Assembly (NCBI RefSeq): GCF_007989805.1
Contig: NZ_BJUB01000001.1
Coordinates: forward strand, 576,325 to 640,324
Reading direction: 5' to 3'
Source: Cellulomonas xylanilytica
Lineage (GTDB): Bacteria > Actinomycetota > Actinomycetes > Actinomycetales > Cellulomonadaceae
Length of the DNA: 64,000 bases
Shown: positions 58,351 through 64,000 of the stretch, piece by piece
Numbering within the stretch: position 1 is the stretch's first letter
How the letters are laid out: each line of letters starts with the position of its first letter
The notes under the pieces: generated by a model
Database searches by the model: none
What the model was told of the DNA's origin: nothing
The model's input: only the letters and a program-made list of their open reading frames with translations
Program-made: the position numbers and the translations under genes

Positions 58351-58389
58351 CGACGCCCCCTGCCTCCTCGACGGAGGCAGGGGGCGTCG
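58351..58389. terminator. Strong terminator after deaD
   Basis: A perfect 17-bp stem (58351-58367 with 58373-58389) closes a 5-nt TCGAC loop. It lies 14 nt after the deaD stop and 8 nt beyond the stop of the convergent sensor gene, so it serves both. The sequence after it, TGCTGTCGCT, has few T residues. Confidence 0.85.
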
Positions 58390-58397
58390 TGCTGTCG

Positions 58398-61088
58398 CTA
58401 CCGCAGGACGGAGCCGGACCGGCCCTGGCGGGAGGCGCCGCGCAGGAGCGTGATGTCCGCCTCCCGCAGCACCTCGCCGACGTCCCGGAACCCGCGGATG
58501 CTGCCGAGCACGCCGATGGCCAGCCGCGACCCGAGCTCCTGGCGCAGCTGGTCCAGCAGGAGCGAGAGCCGGGGCGGCACGCCACCCGGGCCCACGTCGT
58601 CCAGCAGGACGACGAAGTCGTCCTCGGCGATGCGTGCGGGGGTGTCACCCTCGCGCAGCGGTCGGCGCAGGCGCCGGACCAGCTCCCGGTGCAGGTCGAG
58701 GCGTGCGTCACCCTCCGACTCGACGTGGCCCTGCGTCGGGATGGACGGCCCGTCCAGGACGCGGACCACGGCGAGCGCGCAGTCGTACCCCGGCGACCGT
58801 CGGGTCCGCAGGACCGCCGCACCCAGCCGGTCGAGGAACAGCAGCCGGTTGACCAGGCCCGTCTCCGGGTCCCGCAGCGCGTCGCGCTGGAGGGCGATCT
58901 CCTGCTCCTTGCGCTCGGTGACGTCCACCAGGGCGCCGACGAGACGGGCCGGGCACCCGGCGTCGTCCAGCACGGTGACGGCGCGGCACAGCATCCACCG
59001 GTAGTCGCCGGAGGACGTCCGGACACGGTGCTCCAGCTCGAGCGGCGACCCGGCACCGGCCAGCTGCGAGGCGATCGACGCCGACAGCTCGTCGCGGTCC
59101 GCGGGGTGCACGCGCTCGAGCCACTCCCCCGGTGAGTCGCCGATGACGTCGTCGTCGTAACCGAGTGTCTGCTTCCACCGCGGCGAGTAGTACACCGTGC
59201 CGGCCGAGACGTCCCAGTCCCACGTGCCGTCGTGCGCGGCCATGGAGGCGAGCGCGTACCGTTCCTCGCTCGCCCGCACGGTGTCCGCCAGCGACCGCTC
59301 ACGGGCTGCTGCCTGCTCCAGTGCCCGGCGCTGCTCGCGCAGGTTGGCCAGGAGACGCTCCTGGTCGAGCGCGACCGCGAGGAGGGCCGCCCAGTGGTTG
59401 AACCGGTCCCGGGCGCTGGTCGCGCGCGTCTCCACCGTCCCGTCGATGGCGAGCAGACCCCAGTCGCTGCCGCCGAAGGTCACGGGCACGACGAACGTCA
59501 GCTCGTTGGACCCGACGGTTCCCGCCCGCGTCAGCGCCGCCGGCGGGAACTGGCTCGCGGTGGTCCGCACGCCGACCAGCCGGGACAGGGTGCCGGACGT
59601 GTCGTGCACGCCGACGACCTCCATCTCGCGGTCCCCCGGGCCGCGGTCGGCGCCGAGCCACAGCCCGAGGCACGCGTGGCCCCGGACCCCGCGCGGCAGC
59701 CAGCCCAGCGCCCGAGGGCTTGCCCCGTCGCCACGCAGGAGGTCCATGTCGACCTCGTACTGGTCGACGATGGTGCGCTCGAGCTGGCCGCTGCGGGCGA
59801 GCATCGCGCGGGTGCACCCCTTGGTCAGCGCCAGCAGCACCTCCGTGACGGACCGCCGGACCGCGTCCTCGTGCTCCGGACGCGAGAGCGCTTCCACCAC
59901 GTCCGCCTCCACGCCGCGCAGGCAGATGACCAGCTGCTCGAGCGCCTCGGGGTGGGGCTGCATCGCGGACGTGACGTCGGCGAGCCGGGCCAGGGTCGCG
60001 GTCCCGGGGACCGTCCCCCGCTCCGCCGCCGTCTCGATCGGCTCCACGACGGCGTGCCACCACGTCTCGCGCGGTGCCACCCCGGTGCGACGAGCCCCGC
60101 CGCTGCCGGACGGACCCACGAACGCCGTCCCGGCGAGGGCGCGCAGCACCTGGTAGCCGCTCCGGCTGCCGCCGCCCGACCCCGTCGCCGGCGCGGACCG
60201 GGCGGACTCGGTGCACCCGCAGGACTCGCGCAGGACCAGCGTGGACGGGGCGCGGTACTCGCCCCCGGGGACGTCCTCGCCGCGCATCCGGGACAGCAGC
60301 AGCGACACCGCGGTCTCGCCGACCCGGTCGTAGTGCGCGTCGACCGTCGACAGCCGCGGCGTCACGCGCGCCCCGGAGTCGGCGTGGTCGAAGCCGATCA
60401 CGGCCTGGTCGCGCGGGAGCACGAGCCCGGCGGCCCGCAGGGCACGCTGGAACCCGATCGCGTTGCGGTCGGTCGCTGCGATCACCGCGGTTGTCGGGGA
60501 ACCGGCCGCGAGCATCTTCGCCGCGGCGTCCGCGCCGCCCTGCTCGTGGTTGTCCGACGACTCGTAGATCCACCCGTCCGGAGCCTCGATGCCGTGGTCG
60601 GCGAGGGTCGCGCGGTAGGCGGCGAAACGCTCGCGCATGTCCCGCTGCGTCAGGCACCCGACGAAGCCGATCGCCGTGTGCCCGTGCTCGAGCAGGTGCT
60701 CGACGGCCGCGCGCACGCCGCCGACGTTGTCCGGGAGGACCACCGCGTCGTCGCCGGACTGCGGCTCCTCGCTGACGAGCACGACGGGCAGACCCCACTG
60801 CTGCACGGAGGCGAGCCGGTCGCTGCGCAGCGCCTTGCCGACGACGACGAGCCCGTCGACGGCACCGAGCGCCACGGGCGCGTCGAGGATCGACTCGTCC
60901 GGGTACCTCTCCCGGTCGAGCCCCGCCGGGTAGGTCTGCACCGCGACCACGCGATGCCCTGCTGCCCGAGCCGCCCGTGCCACCCCAGCGATCAGGGCCC
61001 CAAAGTAGAACCCGCCGACCACCGGCGAGAGCACACCGATCGTCCGTCTCGCCGTTGGTGAGACCGGTCCACGCCGCACTGTTCCCAT
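58398..61088 (-). CDS. LacI-type sugar-binding / PAS / degenerate GGDEF sensor
   Basis: An 896-residue cytoplasmic sensor. Residues about 15-295 are a LacI/periplasmic-binding fold (RTIGVLSPVVGGFYFGALIA, VLPDNVGGVRAAVEHLLEHG, AVIAATDRNAIGFQRALRAA) without a DNA-binding HTH, signal peptide or membrane helix. A middle region has a GAF-like part (LTFVVPVTFGGSDWGLLAID). A PAS domain follows (about 615-730; SMAAHDGTWDWDVSAGTVYY, then LVGALVDVTERKEQE). The end is GGDEF-like (RDPETGLVNRLLFLDRL), but the GGDEF motif is AEDDF near residue 822, so cyclase activity is doubtful. The ATG at 61088 is chosen because the GTG at 61154 would almost touch the divergent gene. Confidence 0.85.
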   Translation of the reverse strand: MGTVRRGPVSPTARRTIGVLSPVVGGFYFGALIAGVARAARAAGHRVVAVQTYPAGLDRERYPDESILDAPVALGAVDGLVVVGKALRSDRLASVQQWGLPVVLVSEEPQSGDDAVVLPDNVGGVRAAVEHLLEHGHTAIGFVGCLTQRDMRERFAAYRATLADHGIEAPDGWIYESSDNHEQGGADAAAKMLAAGSPTTAVIAATDRNAIGFQRALRAAGLVLPRDQAVIGFDHADSGARVTPRLSTVDAHYDRVGETAVSLLLSRMRGEDVPGGEYRAPSTLVLRESCGCTESARSAPATGSGGGSRSGYQVLRALAGTAFVGPSGSGGARRTGVAPRETWWHAVVEPIETAAERGTVPGTATLARLADVTSAMQPHPEALEQLVICLRGVEADVVEALSRPEHEDAVRRSVTEVLLALTKGCTRAMLARSGQLERTIVDQYEVDMDLLRGDGASPRALGWLPRGVRGHACLGLWLGADRGPGDREMEVVGVHDTSGTLSRLVGVRTTASQFPPAALTRAGTVGSNELTFVVPVTFGGSDWGLLAIDGTVETRATSARDRFNHWAALLAVALDQERLLANLREQRRALEQAAARERSLADTVRASEERYALASMAAHDGTWDWDVSAGTVYYSPRWKQTLGYDDDVIGDSPGEWLERVHPADRDELSASIASQLAGAGSPLELEHRVRTSSGDYRWMLCRAVTVLDDAGCPARLVGALVDVTERKEQEIALQRDALRDPETGLVNRLLFLDRLGAAVLRTRRSPGYDCALAVVRVLDGPSIPTQGHVESEGDARLDLHRELVRRLRRPLREGDTPARIAEDDFVVLLDDVGPGGVPPRLSLLLDQLRQELGSRLAIGVLGSIRGFRDVGEVLREADITLLRGASRQGRSGSVLR

Positions 61089-61159
61089 GACCCCACATCC
61101 CTCGCCCACGTCGTCGGAGCCGAGATGATGCATTTCACCCGCATCGGGCGACACACTAG

Positions 61160-62290
61160 GTGATCGTGGTCACACCTGCATATGACTCCGGAGTACCCGG
61201 CTCTTCCGCGTCGCCGTCGACGCCGTCGCCCGGGCCGTCCTCCCCCGCCCCTTCCCACGCGCCCGCACCGGCGCCGGCACGACGTCCGACGATTACCGAC
61301 GTGGCACGCGCCGCGGGTGTCTCGATCGCCGTCGTGTCCTACGCACTAAACGGTCGACCGGGGGTCTCCGCAGCGACCCGCGAACGCGTCCTGCGCGTCG
61401 CCGACGAGTTCGGCTGGCGGCCCAGCGCGGCCGCGCGGTCGATGCGCACGGGTCCCCGCGCGATCGGTCTCGTGTTCGACCGCGGCGCCGCCGGCCCGGT
61501 GGCGCAGGCCACCGGCGTGCTCGAGTTCGTCATCTCGTTGCAGGAGGTGCTGGCGACGCGCAACCTCGCCCTGGTCCTCCAGCTCGTCGACGGGCCCGAG
61601 GCCGCCGTGACCTTGTACGGCGAGTGGTGGGCCGAGCGCCGGTTCGACGTCATGGTCGTCACCGACGTCCTCGCGGAGGACCCGCGGATCGACGCGCTCC
61701 GACGTCTGCGCGCTCCCGCGGTGATCGTCAGTGCAGGTCAGAGCGATGTGGACCTCGCCTCGGTGACCATCGACGACGCCGAGGCGTTCGTCCGTGTCGG
61801 CCGGTACCTGCTGGAGCTGGGGCACCGGCACGTGGCCCTGGTGAGCGGGCCCAAGGAGCTCGTGCGCACCCGCGAGCGACTCGCAGCGCTCTCCGGAGTC
61901 CTCGACGCGGCGAGCGGCGTGCTCGTCCACGAGGCCACCGGGGGCACCGCCGAGGAGGCGGCCGTGGCGACCAGGCGGCTGCTCACCGGGGGCCGCGCGC
62001 CGACGGCGATCGTGTACGACTCGGACCAGATGGCGGTCGCCGCGCTCGACGTCGCGCGTCGGACCGGGCTCGCCGTGCCGTGGGACCTGTCGGTCGTGGC
62101 GGGCTCCGACTCGGCTCTCTGCCGGCTCGCCACGCCGTCGATCACGACGCTCCCCTCGGCCCAGCGGGATCTCGGGACGGCGACCGGAGAGGCCGTCCTG
62201 GCGGTCCTCGACGGGGACGTCCGGGCACGCCGCGAGCTCCAGATCGGCGGCCTCGCGGTGCGCGGGAGCACCGGTCCCAGGTCGAGATGA
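61160..62290 (+). CDS. LacI-family transcriptional repressor
   Basis: A 376-residue LacI-type repressor. A 45-residue Pro/Ser-rich, disordered tail precedes the HTH and hinge helix (TITDVARAAGVSIAVVSYAL, then FGWRPSAAARSMRTG), followed by a sugar-binding core (AIGLVFDRGAAGPVAQATGV, GHRHVALVSGPKELVRTRER, AIVYDSDQMAVAALDVARRT). It diverges from the sugar-sensor gene. Its stop codon lies in a CebR/CelR-like palindrome and the cellulase gene begins 174 bp further on, so it is a likely regulator of that gene. Start is uncertain: GTG 61160 or 61166; both lie in the low-complexity tail. Confidence 0.88.
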   Translation: MIVVTPAYDSGVPGSSASPSTPSPGPSSPAPSHAPAPAPARRPTITDVARAAGVSIAVVSYALNGRPGVSAATRERVLRVADEFGWRPSAAARSMRTGPRAIGLVFDRGAAGPVAQATGVLEFVISLQEVLATRNLALVLQLVDGPEAAVTLYGEWWAERRFDVMVVTDVLAEDPRIDALRRLRAPAVIVSAGQSDVDLASVTIDDAEAFVRVGRYLLELGHRHVALVSGPKELVRTRERLAALSGVLDAASGVLVHEATGGTAEEAAVATRRLLTGGRAPTAIVYDSDQMAVAALDVARRTGLAVPWDLSVVAGSDSALCRLATPSITTLPSAQRDLGTATGEAVLAVLDGDVRARRELQIGGLAVRGSTGPRSR

Positions 62291-62303
62291 GAACGCTCTC
62301 ATC
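62286..62303 (+). promoter_or_regulatory. CebR/CelR-like LacI operator upstream of the cellobiohydrolase
   Basis: GATGAGA-ACGC-TCTCATC has perfect 7-bp arms. The inner 14 nt TGAGAACGCTCTCA match the actinobacterial CebR/CelR box TGGGAGCGCTCCCA at 11 of 14 positions. It overlaps the lacI stop (62288-62290) and lies 162 bp before the cellulase GTG. A cellobiose- or oligosaccharide-responsive LacI protein should bind here. Confidence 0.7.
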
Positions 62304-62464
62304 CATGTCACATTTTGGTAACGGCGAGAACCTAAACGATTTGCCCCGTGCCGCCCGGAAAGTCCGCATGGTGATCTACGTCCAGTCGCCGTGGACTTTC
62401 CCGGCCGACATGCGCCCGGACGGGACGGCCGGCCGGGCACGCCGATCGACACCCGGAGGACTAC
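62304..62464 (+). promoter_or_regulatory. Leader of the cellobiohydrolase gene with long-range hairpin
   Basis: The stretch after the operator is locally A/T-rich (around 62310-62345, TTTTGGTAACGG and CCTAAACGATTTG) and probably holds the promoter, but no clean -35/-10 pair is seen. GGAAAGTCC (62357-62365) and GGACTTTCC (62393-62401) form a perfect 9-bp inverted repeat with a 27-nt loop. The ribosome binding site GGAGGA is at 62456-62461. Confidence 0.5.
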
Positions 62465-64000
62465 GTGTCCACACACGGCAAGAGAGCGGTGAGGCAGCGT
62501 CTGCGCGCCGCCACCACCGCAGCAGCAGCGATGGCGCTGCTCGCAGCCCCCCTGTGCATCACCACGAGTGCGAGCGCCGCCGAGGCGCACGTCGACAACC
62601 CCTTCGCGGGCGCGACGCAGTACGTGAACCCCACGTACGCGGCAGCGGTTGAGAGCGCTGCCACACGTGCCGGCGACGCGACCCTGGCCGCGAAGATGCG
62701 GACCGTCGCCAAGCAGCCGACCGCCGTCTGGATGGACCGGATCAGCGCCATCACCGGCAACGCGGACGGCAACGGCCTGAAGTTCCACCTGGACAACGCG
62801 GTGGCCCAGAAGGGCGCGGGCCCGATCGTGTTCAACCTGGTCATCTACGACCTGCCCGGCCGCGACTGCTTCGCCCTCGCGTCGAACGGTGAGCTCCCCG
62901 CCACCGACGCCGGGCTGGCGCGCTACAAGACCGAGTACATCGACGCCATCGCGGCGCTCCTGGCCGACCCGAAGTACCAGGACCTCCGCATCGTGGCGAC
63001 GATCGAGCCCGACTCGCTGCCGAACCTGGTGACGAACATCTCGGAGCCCGCCTGCCAGCAGTCGGCGCCCTACTACCGGGCGGGCGTGAAGTACGCGCTC
63101 GACAAGCTCCACGCCATCCCGAACGTCTACAACTACATCGACATCGGCCACTCGGGCTGGCTCGGCTGGGACAGCAACGCCGGTCCGTCCGCCACGCTCT
63201 TCGCCGAGGTGGCCAAGTCGACGACGGCCGGCTTCGCGTCCGTCGACGGGTTCGTGAGCGACGTGGCCAACACCACCCCGCTCGTCGAGCCGTACCTGCC
63301 GGACTCCTCGATCTCCGTCGGTGGCACGCCGATCCGGTCGAGCTCGTTCTACGAGTGGAACTTCGACTTCGACGAGACCGACTTCACGGCGCACATGCAC
63401 CGTCTGCTCGTCGCCGCCGGGTTCCCGTCGTCGATCGGCATGCTGATCGACACCTCGCGCAACGGCTGGGGCGGTCCGAACCGTCCGACCGCCGCGTCGA
63501 CCAGCACCAACCACAACACCTACGTGAACGAGTCCAAGGTGGACAAGCGCGTCCACCGTGGCGCGTGGTGCAACCCGCTCGGTGCCGGTATCGGCGAGCT
63601 CCCGCAGGCGACGCCCTCGGGCTACACGGCCTCGCACCTGGACGCGTTCGTCTGGATCAAGCCCCCGGGTGAGTCCGACGGTGCCTCCAGCGAGATCGAG
63701 AACGACCAGGGCAAGCGGTTCGACCGCATGTGCGACCCGACCTTCGTGTCGCCCAAGCTGAGCAACCAGCTCACCGGCGCCACGCCCGGTGCCCCGCTGG
63801 CCGGCCAGTGGTTCGAGGCGCAGTTCAAGACCCTCGTCGCCAACGCCTACCCGGTGATCCCCGGCGGCACCACGCCGACCGACACGACGGCGCCCTCGGT
63901 GCCGGCGGGTCTGACGGCCGGTACCACCACCACGACGTCGGTCCCGCTGTCCTGGACCGCCTCGACCGACAACAGCGGTGGTTCCGGCGTCGCCGGATAT
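62465..64000 (+). CDS. cbhA: GH6 exocellobiohydrolase with Fn3 linker, 3' end outside window
   Basis: A secreted cellulase; 512 codons are visible and the frame runs off the right edge. A signal peptide (basic RAVRQRLR, hydrophobic AAAAMALLAAPLCI, cleavage near TSASAAEA) is followed by a GH6 domain with NLVIYDLPGRDCFALASNGE (catalytic acid Asp at residue 134), ATIEPDSLPNLVTN, YIDIGHSGWLGW, RGAWCNPLGAGIG and WIKPPGESDG. From about residue 472 a fibronectin-III repeat starts (APSVPAGLTAG). This is the layout of Cellulomonas CbhA/Cel6B, which cleaves cellobiose from the non-reducing end; further Fn3 and a CBM2 are expected beyond the edge. GTG start with GGAGGA. Confidence 0.93.
   Translation, partial: MSTHGKRAVRQRLRAATTAAAAMALLAAPLCITTSASAAEAHVDNPFAGATQYVNPTYAAAVESAATRAGDATLAAKMRTVAKQPTAVWMDRISAITGNADGNGLKFHLDNAVAQKGAGPIVFNLVIYDLPGRDCFALASNGELPATDAGLARYKTEYIDAIAALLADPKYQDLRIVATIEPDSLPNLVTNISEPACQQSAPYYRAGVKYALDKLHAIPNVYNYIDIGHSGWLGWDSNAGPSATLFAEVAKSTTAGFASVDGFVSDVANTTPLVEPYLPDSSISVGGTPIRSSSFYEWNFDFDETDFTAHMHRLLVAAGFPSSIGMLIDTSRNGWGGPNRPTAASTSTNHNTYVNESKVDKRVHRGAWCNPLGAGIGELPQATPSGYTASHLDAFVWIKPPGESDGASSEIENDQGKRFDRMCDPTFVSPKLSNQLTGATPGAPLAGQWFEAQFKTLVANAYPVIPGGTTPTDTTAPSVPAGLTAGTTTTTSVPLSWTASTDNSGGSGVAGY

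Follow-up and report, generated by a model that had tools for sequence, protein, structure and literature searches.

A putative sugar sensor and a LacI-family repressor, encoded head-to-head beside a cellulase gene, may together control plant-cell-wall hydrolases in Cellulomonas. The genes lie in a 64,000-nucleotide stretch of the Cellulomonas xylanilytica genome (4.44 Mb; assembly GCF_007989805.1, contig NZ_BJUB01000001.1, positions 576,325 to 640,324; G000:C1:576325-640324 in our numbering), referred to here as the window. A protein that joins a LacI-type binding domain to GAF, PAS and GGDEF-like domains and has no helix-turn-helix (HTH), hereafter the sensor, is transcribed away from a LacI repressor gene, which is followed by a gene for a glycoside hydrolase family 6 (GH6) exocellulase. 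The original prediction had described this arrangement, and it was confirmed in the window (Table 1). The GH6 gene is cut because the contig ends at the window end. By sensor identity (95-98%), the closest named relatives belong to Cellulomonas, among them C. terrae, C. humilata and Root485. We propose, tentatively, that the sensor relays a cellulose-sugar signal to the LacI protein, which would act as the repressor of a regulon of wall hydrolases.

The pairing of the two regulatory genes is nearly invariant. Sixty-four sensor loci were compared, 35 from named organisms and 29 others, most of the latter having too little flank for a GH6 call. About 56 of them are distinct, because in eight named loci the lacI-GH6 region duplicates that of another locus. 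A LacI gene is adjacent and divergent to the sensor in 63 of the 64, so that a chance neighbourhood was rejected; in the single exception, L054, the contig starts within the sensor gene. GH6 was found downstream in 33 of the 35 named loci, the misses being L054 and L043 (short contig). In C. bogoriensis (L063) and its twin L022 another gene follows lacI, with GH6 further on. Conservation near cellulase genes had been suggested as a check, and it was borne out: the whole unit occurs in Cellulomonas, Cellulosimicrobium, Isoptericola and Kribbella.

Within the window's genus (group g1, 17 genomes sampled; group g17 holds certain named Cellulomonas, C. cellasea for example), the unit is kept or missing as a whole at the thresholds applied. 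Twelve genomes have the sensor with an adjacent LacI gene and an exo-type GH6 (at least 338 bits); the other five have no sensor at 1e-100 and no exo-type GH6. No LacI match at 1e-40 was found in four of these five, and G109 has two (41% and 37%); four of the five keep a weaker-scoring GH6 (177-225 bits). Across the family sample, 72 of 150 genomes matched the sensor at 1e-100, enzymatic paralogues included. Of the 78 genomes that had no sensor match, 20 were searched for LacI at 1e-40, and nine of these yielded 13 matches, 35-42% identical. The five best (L093-L097) have a different recognition helix, STGAVSYALN, and the remaining eight fell outside the search pattern. No GH6 match was found at any of these 13 loci, and the sensor matches there were the LacI-type proteins themselves. 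In the class sample six of 394 genomes matched at 1e-90; two belong to the window's family, and the other four matches are long frames with 37-41% identity. Kribbella catacumbae (L056) has the whole unit with the operator described below (identities: sensor 64%, LacI 65%, GH6 75%), and no match was found there to the DEAD-box helicase gene that neighbours the sensor in most Cellulomonas loci. The named Kribbella sensors nest inside the Cellulomonas ones in the tree, which suggests that the unit has been transferred between lineages.

A predicted operator is conserved between lacI and GH6. Operators were counted in 51 of the 64 lacI-GH6 regions, 13 being dropped as identical to another or incomplete. 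CTAAWCGNTT was found exactly in 39 of the 51 (shuffled mean 0.02, largest 2) and with one or two mismatches in the remaining 12. The original prediction had placed a CebR-like operator on the lacI stop codon. Such a palindrome is indeed present in the window, but it does not hold as a general CebR/CelR rule: the form TGAGARCGYTCTCA occurs in eight of the 51 regions, near relatives only, and the wider form TGRGARCGYTCYCA adds only two 13-of-14-base matches, in L023 and in L025, both within the beginning of the gene that follows. With eight regions against 39 for exact CTAAWCGNTT, the CebR/CelR operator was rejected as the conserved control element. Overlap of an operator with the lacI stop stood in kind, as a CTAAACG-type palindrome lies there in nine regions (Cellulosimicrobium, Isoptericola and others; loose pattern); its CebR-like identity did not. 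In the window's clade the CebR-like palindrome may be a second input that was gained.

The same class of site marks hydrolase genes elsewhere in the genome. Searching the window's own genome for CTAAWCGWTTYNNC with at most one mismatch gave 19 sites, against two for the reversed pattern. Seven of the eight exact CTAAWCGNTTY sites adjoin plant-polysaccharide genes, at distances of 212 bp (GH48), 141 bp (GH9), 118 bp (GH11), 125 bp (pectate lyase) and 114 bp (a BNR protein that we label GH74-like, for which Pfam gave BNR and Sortilin-Vps10 only). GH6 and GH3 genes also adjoin exact sites, and the predicted start of the GH3 open reading frame (ORF) overlaps its site. The eighth exact site lies in the 5' part of a lipoprotein-like ORF with no Pfam match. 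One-mismatch sites precede another GH9, a GH5 and a GDSL-CBM2 protein, and one falls within a predicted ORF spanning the 5' end of a GH10 gene; the one-mismatch set is mixed, because others precede transporters and a different lacI.

The exact site at the GH3 gene is L118 (G000:C10:20657), and on its other side lies a divergent ORF. The product of this ORF has a Tat-like, lipobox-like N-terminus and no Pfam match, and is a candidate solute-binding protein; L118 is a possible point of cello-oligosaccharide uptake under the same control.

Presence of the exact site follows presence of the pair. Forty-four genomes were compared, 28 of the 30 with the pair and 16 of the 20 without; G004, G012, G015, G017, G029 and G039, with many reversed-control matches, were left out. 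Among the 28 genomes that have the pair, 27 hold the exact site (124 sites, against 5 for the reversed control); among the 16 without it, four do (4 sites, against 3). The association has a Fisher p of 1e-6 when relatedness and shared cellulase loss are ignored. Within g1 it was found in all 12 genomes with the pair (71 sites) and in none of the five without. The one-mismatch forms listed for these five read CGAATCG-, CAAATCG- and similar, none with a CTAAWCG core. Based on these distributions, the LacI protein of the pair probably binds the CTAAWCGNTT-class operator. A further pattern was seen in g1 genomes both with and without the pair: CGAATCGATTCGAC-like sites in pairs with starts 34 bp apart (for example G020:C10:61326-61373, G041:C1:54260-54307 and G121:C1:856099-856146). 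They may be a tandem operator of another regulator.

The LacI protein belongs to the LacI/GalR family by both its HTH (PF00356, 55.4 bits) and its effector domain (PF13377, 93.5 bits). CelR (5ysz) scores 81.5 bits against it, with 4o5a (168) and PurR/CcpA entries scoring higher, and no CelR orthologue was identified in the window's genome. Constraint is unevenly spread over the 51 paired loci. The HTH and hinge of the LacI protein hardly vary (constancy of at least 95% in 34 of 58 columns; median identity, 0.97), whereas its effector domain is loose (28 of 271 columns) and the binding domain of the sensor is tighter (84 of 275). Omitting seven of the nearest relatives left the column counts of both ligand domains unchanged and gave median pairwise identities of 0.45 for the LacI effector domain and 0.58 for the sensor. 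At positions aligned with inducer contacts, the sensor has R, T-D and D in 51 of 51 sequences each; the LacI partner has R in 40 of 51, a variable S/T/D, and D in 49 of 51. We take these pocket-like R, T-D and D positions to be equivalent to the LacI inducer contacts R197, N246 and D274. The original prediction had both proteins reading the same sugar in parallel; judged from the alignments, the constraint pattern fits better with sensing by the sensor.

Fold matches for the modelled binding domain of the sensor were LacI, CcpA, RbsR and CelR. The GAF region had no Pfam match and its model gave GAF folds, with the limit that Foldseek alone returned no E below 0.02 and mixed GAF with haemoglobins. 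Apart from the PAS S-box model, NCBIfam gave only weak, sub-cut-off relatives of the sensor. Among 54 relatives the coiled coil and PAS are the best-conserved part (median identity 0.84), and among the folded domains the GGDEF-like one varies most (0.50). Right behind the binding domain (60213-60230, residues 287-292) an R-x-S/T-C-G-C motif was observed in 116 of 121 sequences, and a similar motif is present in ten of ten enzymatic paralogues.

The sensor lacks the hallmarks of a cyclic di-GMP (c-di-GMP) enzyme. In the set of 121 sequences (the window's and 120 of 198 homologues), GG(D/E)EF, the signature of diguanylate cyclases, was found in none over the whole length. The window reads AEDDF, and 37 sequences lack the GGDEF-like domain and end after PAS. 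The D-x-D-x-F-K-type segment of the paralogues is missing from the window sensor, and Pfam detected no EAL domain there at E<=1, as a GGDEF-EAL protein would have. The earlier suggestion of nucleotide signalling thus fails as far as synthesis is concerned; the sensor very probably has no nucleotide-making activity, to judge from its motifs. On a quick maximum-likelihood tree (midpoint-rooted, five partial sequences omitted), presence or absence of the GGDEF-like domain requires seven changes, six of them forced by strongly supported branches. The sister group comprises ten proteins from seven loci, with an intact GGDEF in all ten and EAL in the three scanned. Members of this LacI-type/GAF/PAS/GGDEF/EAL family were found at L106-L112 and L167-L169, and a pattern search detected no LacI HTH motif at the ten fetched paralogue loci (the seven of the sister group and three further). 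Catalytic motifs are therefore absent from the LacI-paired group and retained in the group found without LacI. It appears that the sensor derives from such an enzyme by loss of EAL, with decay of GGDEF afterwards; the enzyme-first polarity follows from the usual order of such losses and the midpoint-rooted tree. At L106 three genes of the enzymatic type are consecutive and at L111 two, both runs adjoining a DEAD-box-helicase-like gene (judged from its N-terminal sequence).

The following mechanism would account for these features. In the absence of sugar, the LacI protein would repress the GH6 exocellulase gene and the plant-cell-wall hydrolase regulon through CTAAACGNTT operators. The sensor binding domain, which likely binds cello-oligosaccharides, would in its sugar-bound state pass the signal to the LacI protein by protein contact. 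The LacI protein would then leave the DNA, freeing GH6 and the rest of the hydrolase genes. We favour relay by contact because the sensor has no catalytic output domain left and can end with PAS. The LacI protein was chosen as the target because the partnership looks private, given the divergent pairing in 63 of 64 loci and the joint absence in five of five g1 genomes. That the sensor acts on the LacI protein itself, freeing the DNA when sugar is bound, is the weakest step and is offered with less confidence than operator binding. A broader formulation is possible and somewhat doubtful: sugar sensing would have been handed to a headless LacI-like receptor, formerly a c-di-GMP enzyme, that gates a LacI protein of frozen specificity and with it a whole regulon. 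If true, the classic one-component repressor would here exist in a two-protein version, and the orphan Cellulomonas cellulase operator would gain a regulator.

Several observations weigh against this proposal. The LacI protein may sense sugar itself, since its effector domain is kept (R 40/51, D 49/51). No surface for contact with LacI was identified, and no CTAAWCGNTT site was noticed in the sensor-lacI gap. Four genomes without the pair hold one exact site each, and with one mismatch allowed pair-less genomes also exceed their control (for example G020, 9 against 1; G010, 9 against 0; G009, 8 against 0). AAACG-centred sites are used by many LacI proteins, so that part of the regulon could belong to a different regulator, and one site (L114) lies 17 bp ahead of a different lacI-type gene. 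Regulator and regulon could also have been lost jointly for ecological reasons, as the pair-less g1 genomes have no exo-type GH6.

An unlikely alternative, though the one that survives best, is that the pair and the cellulase genes are co-inherited and co-used: the sensor would serve another partner, such as a c-di-GMP enzyme, a kinase or RNA polymerase, and the LacI protein would sense its own sugar. GAF and PAS domains commonly serve many partners, the sensor has paralogues that lack a LacI HTH motif in their surroundings, and the effector domain of LacI is complete, 49 of 51 sequences having D at the equivalent position. However, the pairing in 63 of 64 loci and the joint absence in all five g1 genomes point to a private partner, and the effector columns of LacI are far less constrained than those of the sensor.

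It is quite unlikely that the degenerate GGDEF domain makes the sensor a PelD-like c-di-GMP receptor that integrates sugar and c-di-GMP and contacts the repressor or another target in its bound form. Degenerate GGDEF receptors such as PelD have been described (PMC7112168 and others). An I-site-like RxxD lies five residues ahead of AEDDF in the window, with both residues present in 47 of 81 sequences and D in 78. However, R is missing in 32 of the 81, and the domain is the least conserved folded part and absent altogether from 37 sequences. Moreover, loci where the sensor match ends before the GGDEF-like domain (L029, L032-L037) retain the divergent LacI gene. A sensor that works as a headless LacI, forming mixed dimers with the LacI protein and so removing it from DNA as dominant-negative lacI alleles do, is very unlikely, since the binding domains are only about 26% identical (matched part; near relatives' LacI), which makes a shared dimer surface doubtful. 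Finally, an active diguanylate cyclase signalling through c-di-GMP is extremely unlikely and was rejected: a Pfam GGDEF score barely above cut-off (25.5 against 23.8 bits) and relatives with intact GGDEF and EAL speak for it, and the lack of GG(D/E)EF in all 121 sequences, of the D-x-D-x-F-K-type segment and of EAL, together with the 37 domain losses, speaks against it.

The remaining elements of the locus are collected with the genes and domains in Table 1. The GATGC inverted repeat occurs in loose form in 21 of 54 distinct promoter regions, and a conserved palindrome in the shared promoter was accordingly rejected as a general feature; a sigma-70 promoter scan gave nothing. A GC-rich hairpin at 58352-58388, between the convergent DEAD-box helicase and sensor genes, is likely their shared terminator and is absent from the output of the terminator scan. 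The direct repeat GTNAC-N6-GTNAC was found in 25 of the 51 lacI-GH6 regions (shuffled mean 0.2, largest 3) and fits the published MtrA pattern GtnAcC-n5-GTnAcn (PMC13189361). No such repeat was found near nine other operator sites examined in the same genome, so the regulon site does not include it; a link of the exocellulase to the MtrAB system is possible.

Table 1. Genes, domains and predicted control elements of the sensor-lacI-GH6 locus (window positions)
Feature	Position	Strand	Remarks
Sensor gene (LacI-type binding domain, helical part, GAF, coiled coil, PAS, GGDEF-like)	58398..61154	-	918 aa ORF
Probable ATG start of sensor	61086-61088	-	gives 896 aa
LacI-type periplasmic-binding domain, no HTH	60219..61046	-	residues 15-290 counted from ATG; Pfam and AlphaFold2 model
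GAF-fold domain	59337..59777	-	about residues 438-584
PAS domain	58923..59231	-	about residues 620-722; Pfam PAS_3
Degenerate GGDEF-like domain	58425..58856	-	Pfam 25.5 bits (cut-off 23.8)
AEDDF at GG(D/E)EF active-site position	58614..58628	-	sequence motif
Inverted repeat GATGC-N9-GCATC	61127..61145	.	midway between divergent start codons, shared promoter region
lacI-family repressor gene	61160..62290	+	likely start GTG 61166, possibly leaderless
LacI HTH	61289..61426	+	Pfam; SIAVVSYALN helix nearly invariant among partners
CebR-like palindrome TGAGAACGCTCTCA	62288..62301	.	overlaps lacI stop
MtrA-like direct repeat GTCAC-N6-GTAAC	62307..62323	+	between lacI and GH6 gene
Conserved predicted operator CCTAAACGATTTGCC, CTAAWCGNTT class	62331..62345	.	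sequence conservation
GH6 exocellulase (cellobiohydrolase) gene	62465..64000	+	cut at contig end

Cellulomonas is a classic cellulose degrader, and one of its main cellulase operators had no named regulator in the relevant passages of the literature. The sensor-LacI pair is a concrete, genetically testable candidate for this control, and our reading would account for the induction of plant-cell-wall enzymes in these bacteria. It would also offer a repeated natural case in which a c-di-GMP enzyme gives up catalysis but retains its sensing part, now linked to a single transcription factor, a step from enzyme to regulator that can be traced across genera.

The operator of CelR and CebR is TGGGAGCGCTCCCA, whereas that proposed here is CTAAACGNTT; close variants of TGGGAGCGCTCCCA are given in PMC3377646. 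As in the CelR system of Thermobifida fusca, where cellobiose is the signal, and the CebR system of Streptomyces, a LacI-family regulator and palindromic, CG-centred operators ahead of cellulases are involved (PMC3377646). Unlike in those systems, the constant partner here is an HTH-less LacI-like protein, and no ABC transporter was noticed at the locus. A site CNAA(T/A)CGNTT ahead of cellulases of C. flavigena has been described, with no regulator named in the passages concerned (Anderson et al., 2012; PMC3377646). CTAAWCGNTT is of the same class and is found here ahead of cellulases and hemicellulases, and the LacI protein of the pair is proposed as its regulator.

Among GGDEF proteins, the nearest parallel in arrangement is the amlR-amlE-ACSP50_2473 cluster of Actinoplanes, where a LacI regulator, a glycoside hydrolase and a GGDEF-type protein lie together and feedback to the regulator has been suggested (PMC6828939). 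In that cluster the GGDEF-EAL protein is predicted to carry a transmembrane domain at its N-terminus; its GGDEF and EAL domains are conserved, and no LacI-type domain is mentioned in the passages that describe it (PMC6828939). The sensor differs in lacking the motif, in carrying a LacI-type domain and in being divergent from its lacI gene. PelD-type receptors share GAF and a degenerate GGDEF with the sensor. In the sensor, however, the I-site is not kept throughout, the domain is missing in relatives, and a LacI-type domain and PAS are added. The enzymatic paralogues (L106-L112, L167-L169) are 35-41% identical to the sensor over the shared domains and have the SCGC-type motif in common with it; they differ in their intact GGDEF, in EAL where scanned, and in the lack of a LacI HTH motif in the fetched neighbourhood. 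A literature search (titles and opening lines of abstracts, few subscription journals) gave, among the papers listed, no description that we recognised of a fixed pairing with an HTH-less LacI-type protein or of its architecture, and no candidate regulator for the orphan Cellulomonas operator. Separately, each ingredient is known: cellulases under LacI control, GGDEF proteins that have degenerated, and GGDEF proteins encoded next to LacI-hydrolase clusters.

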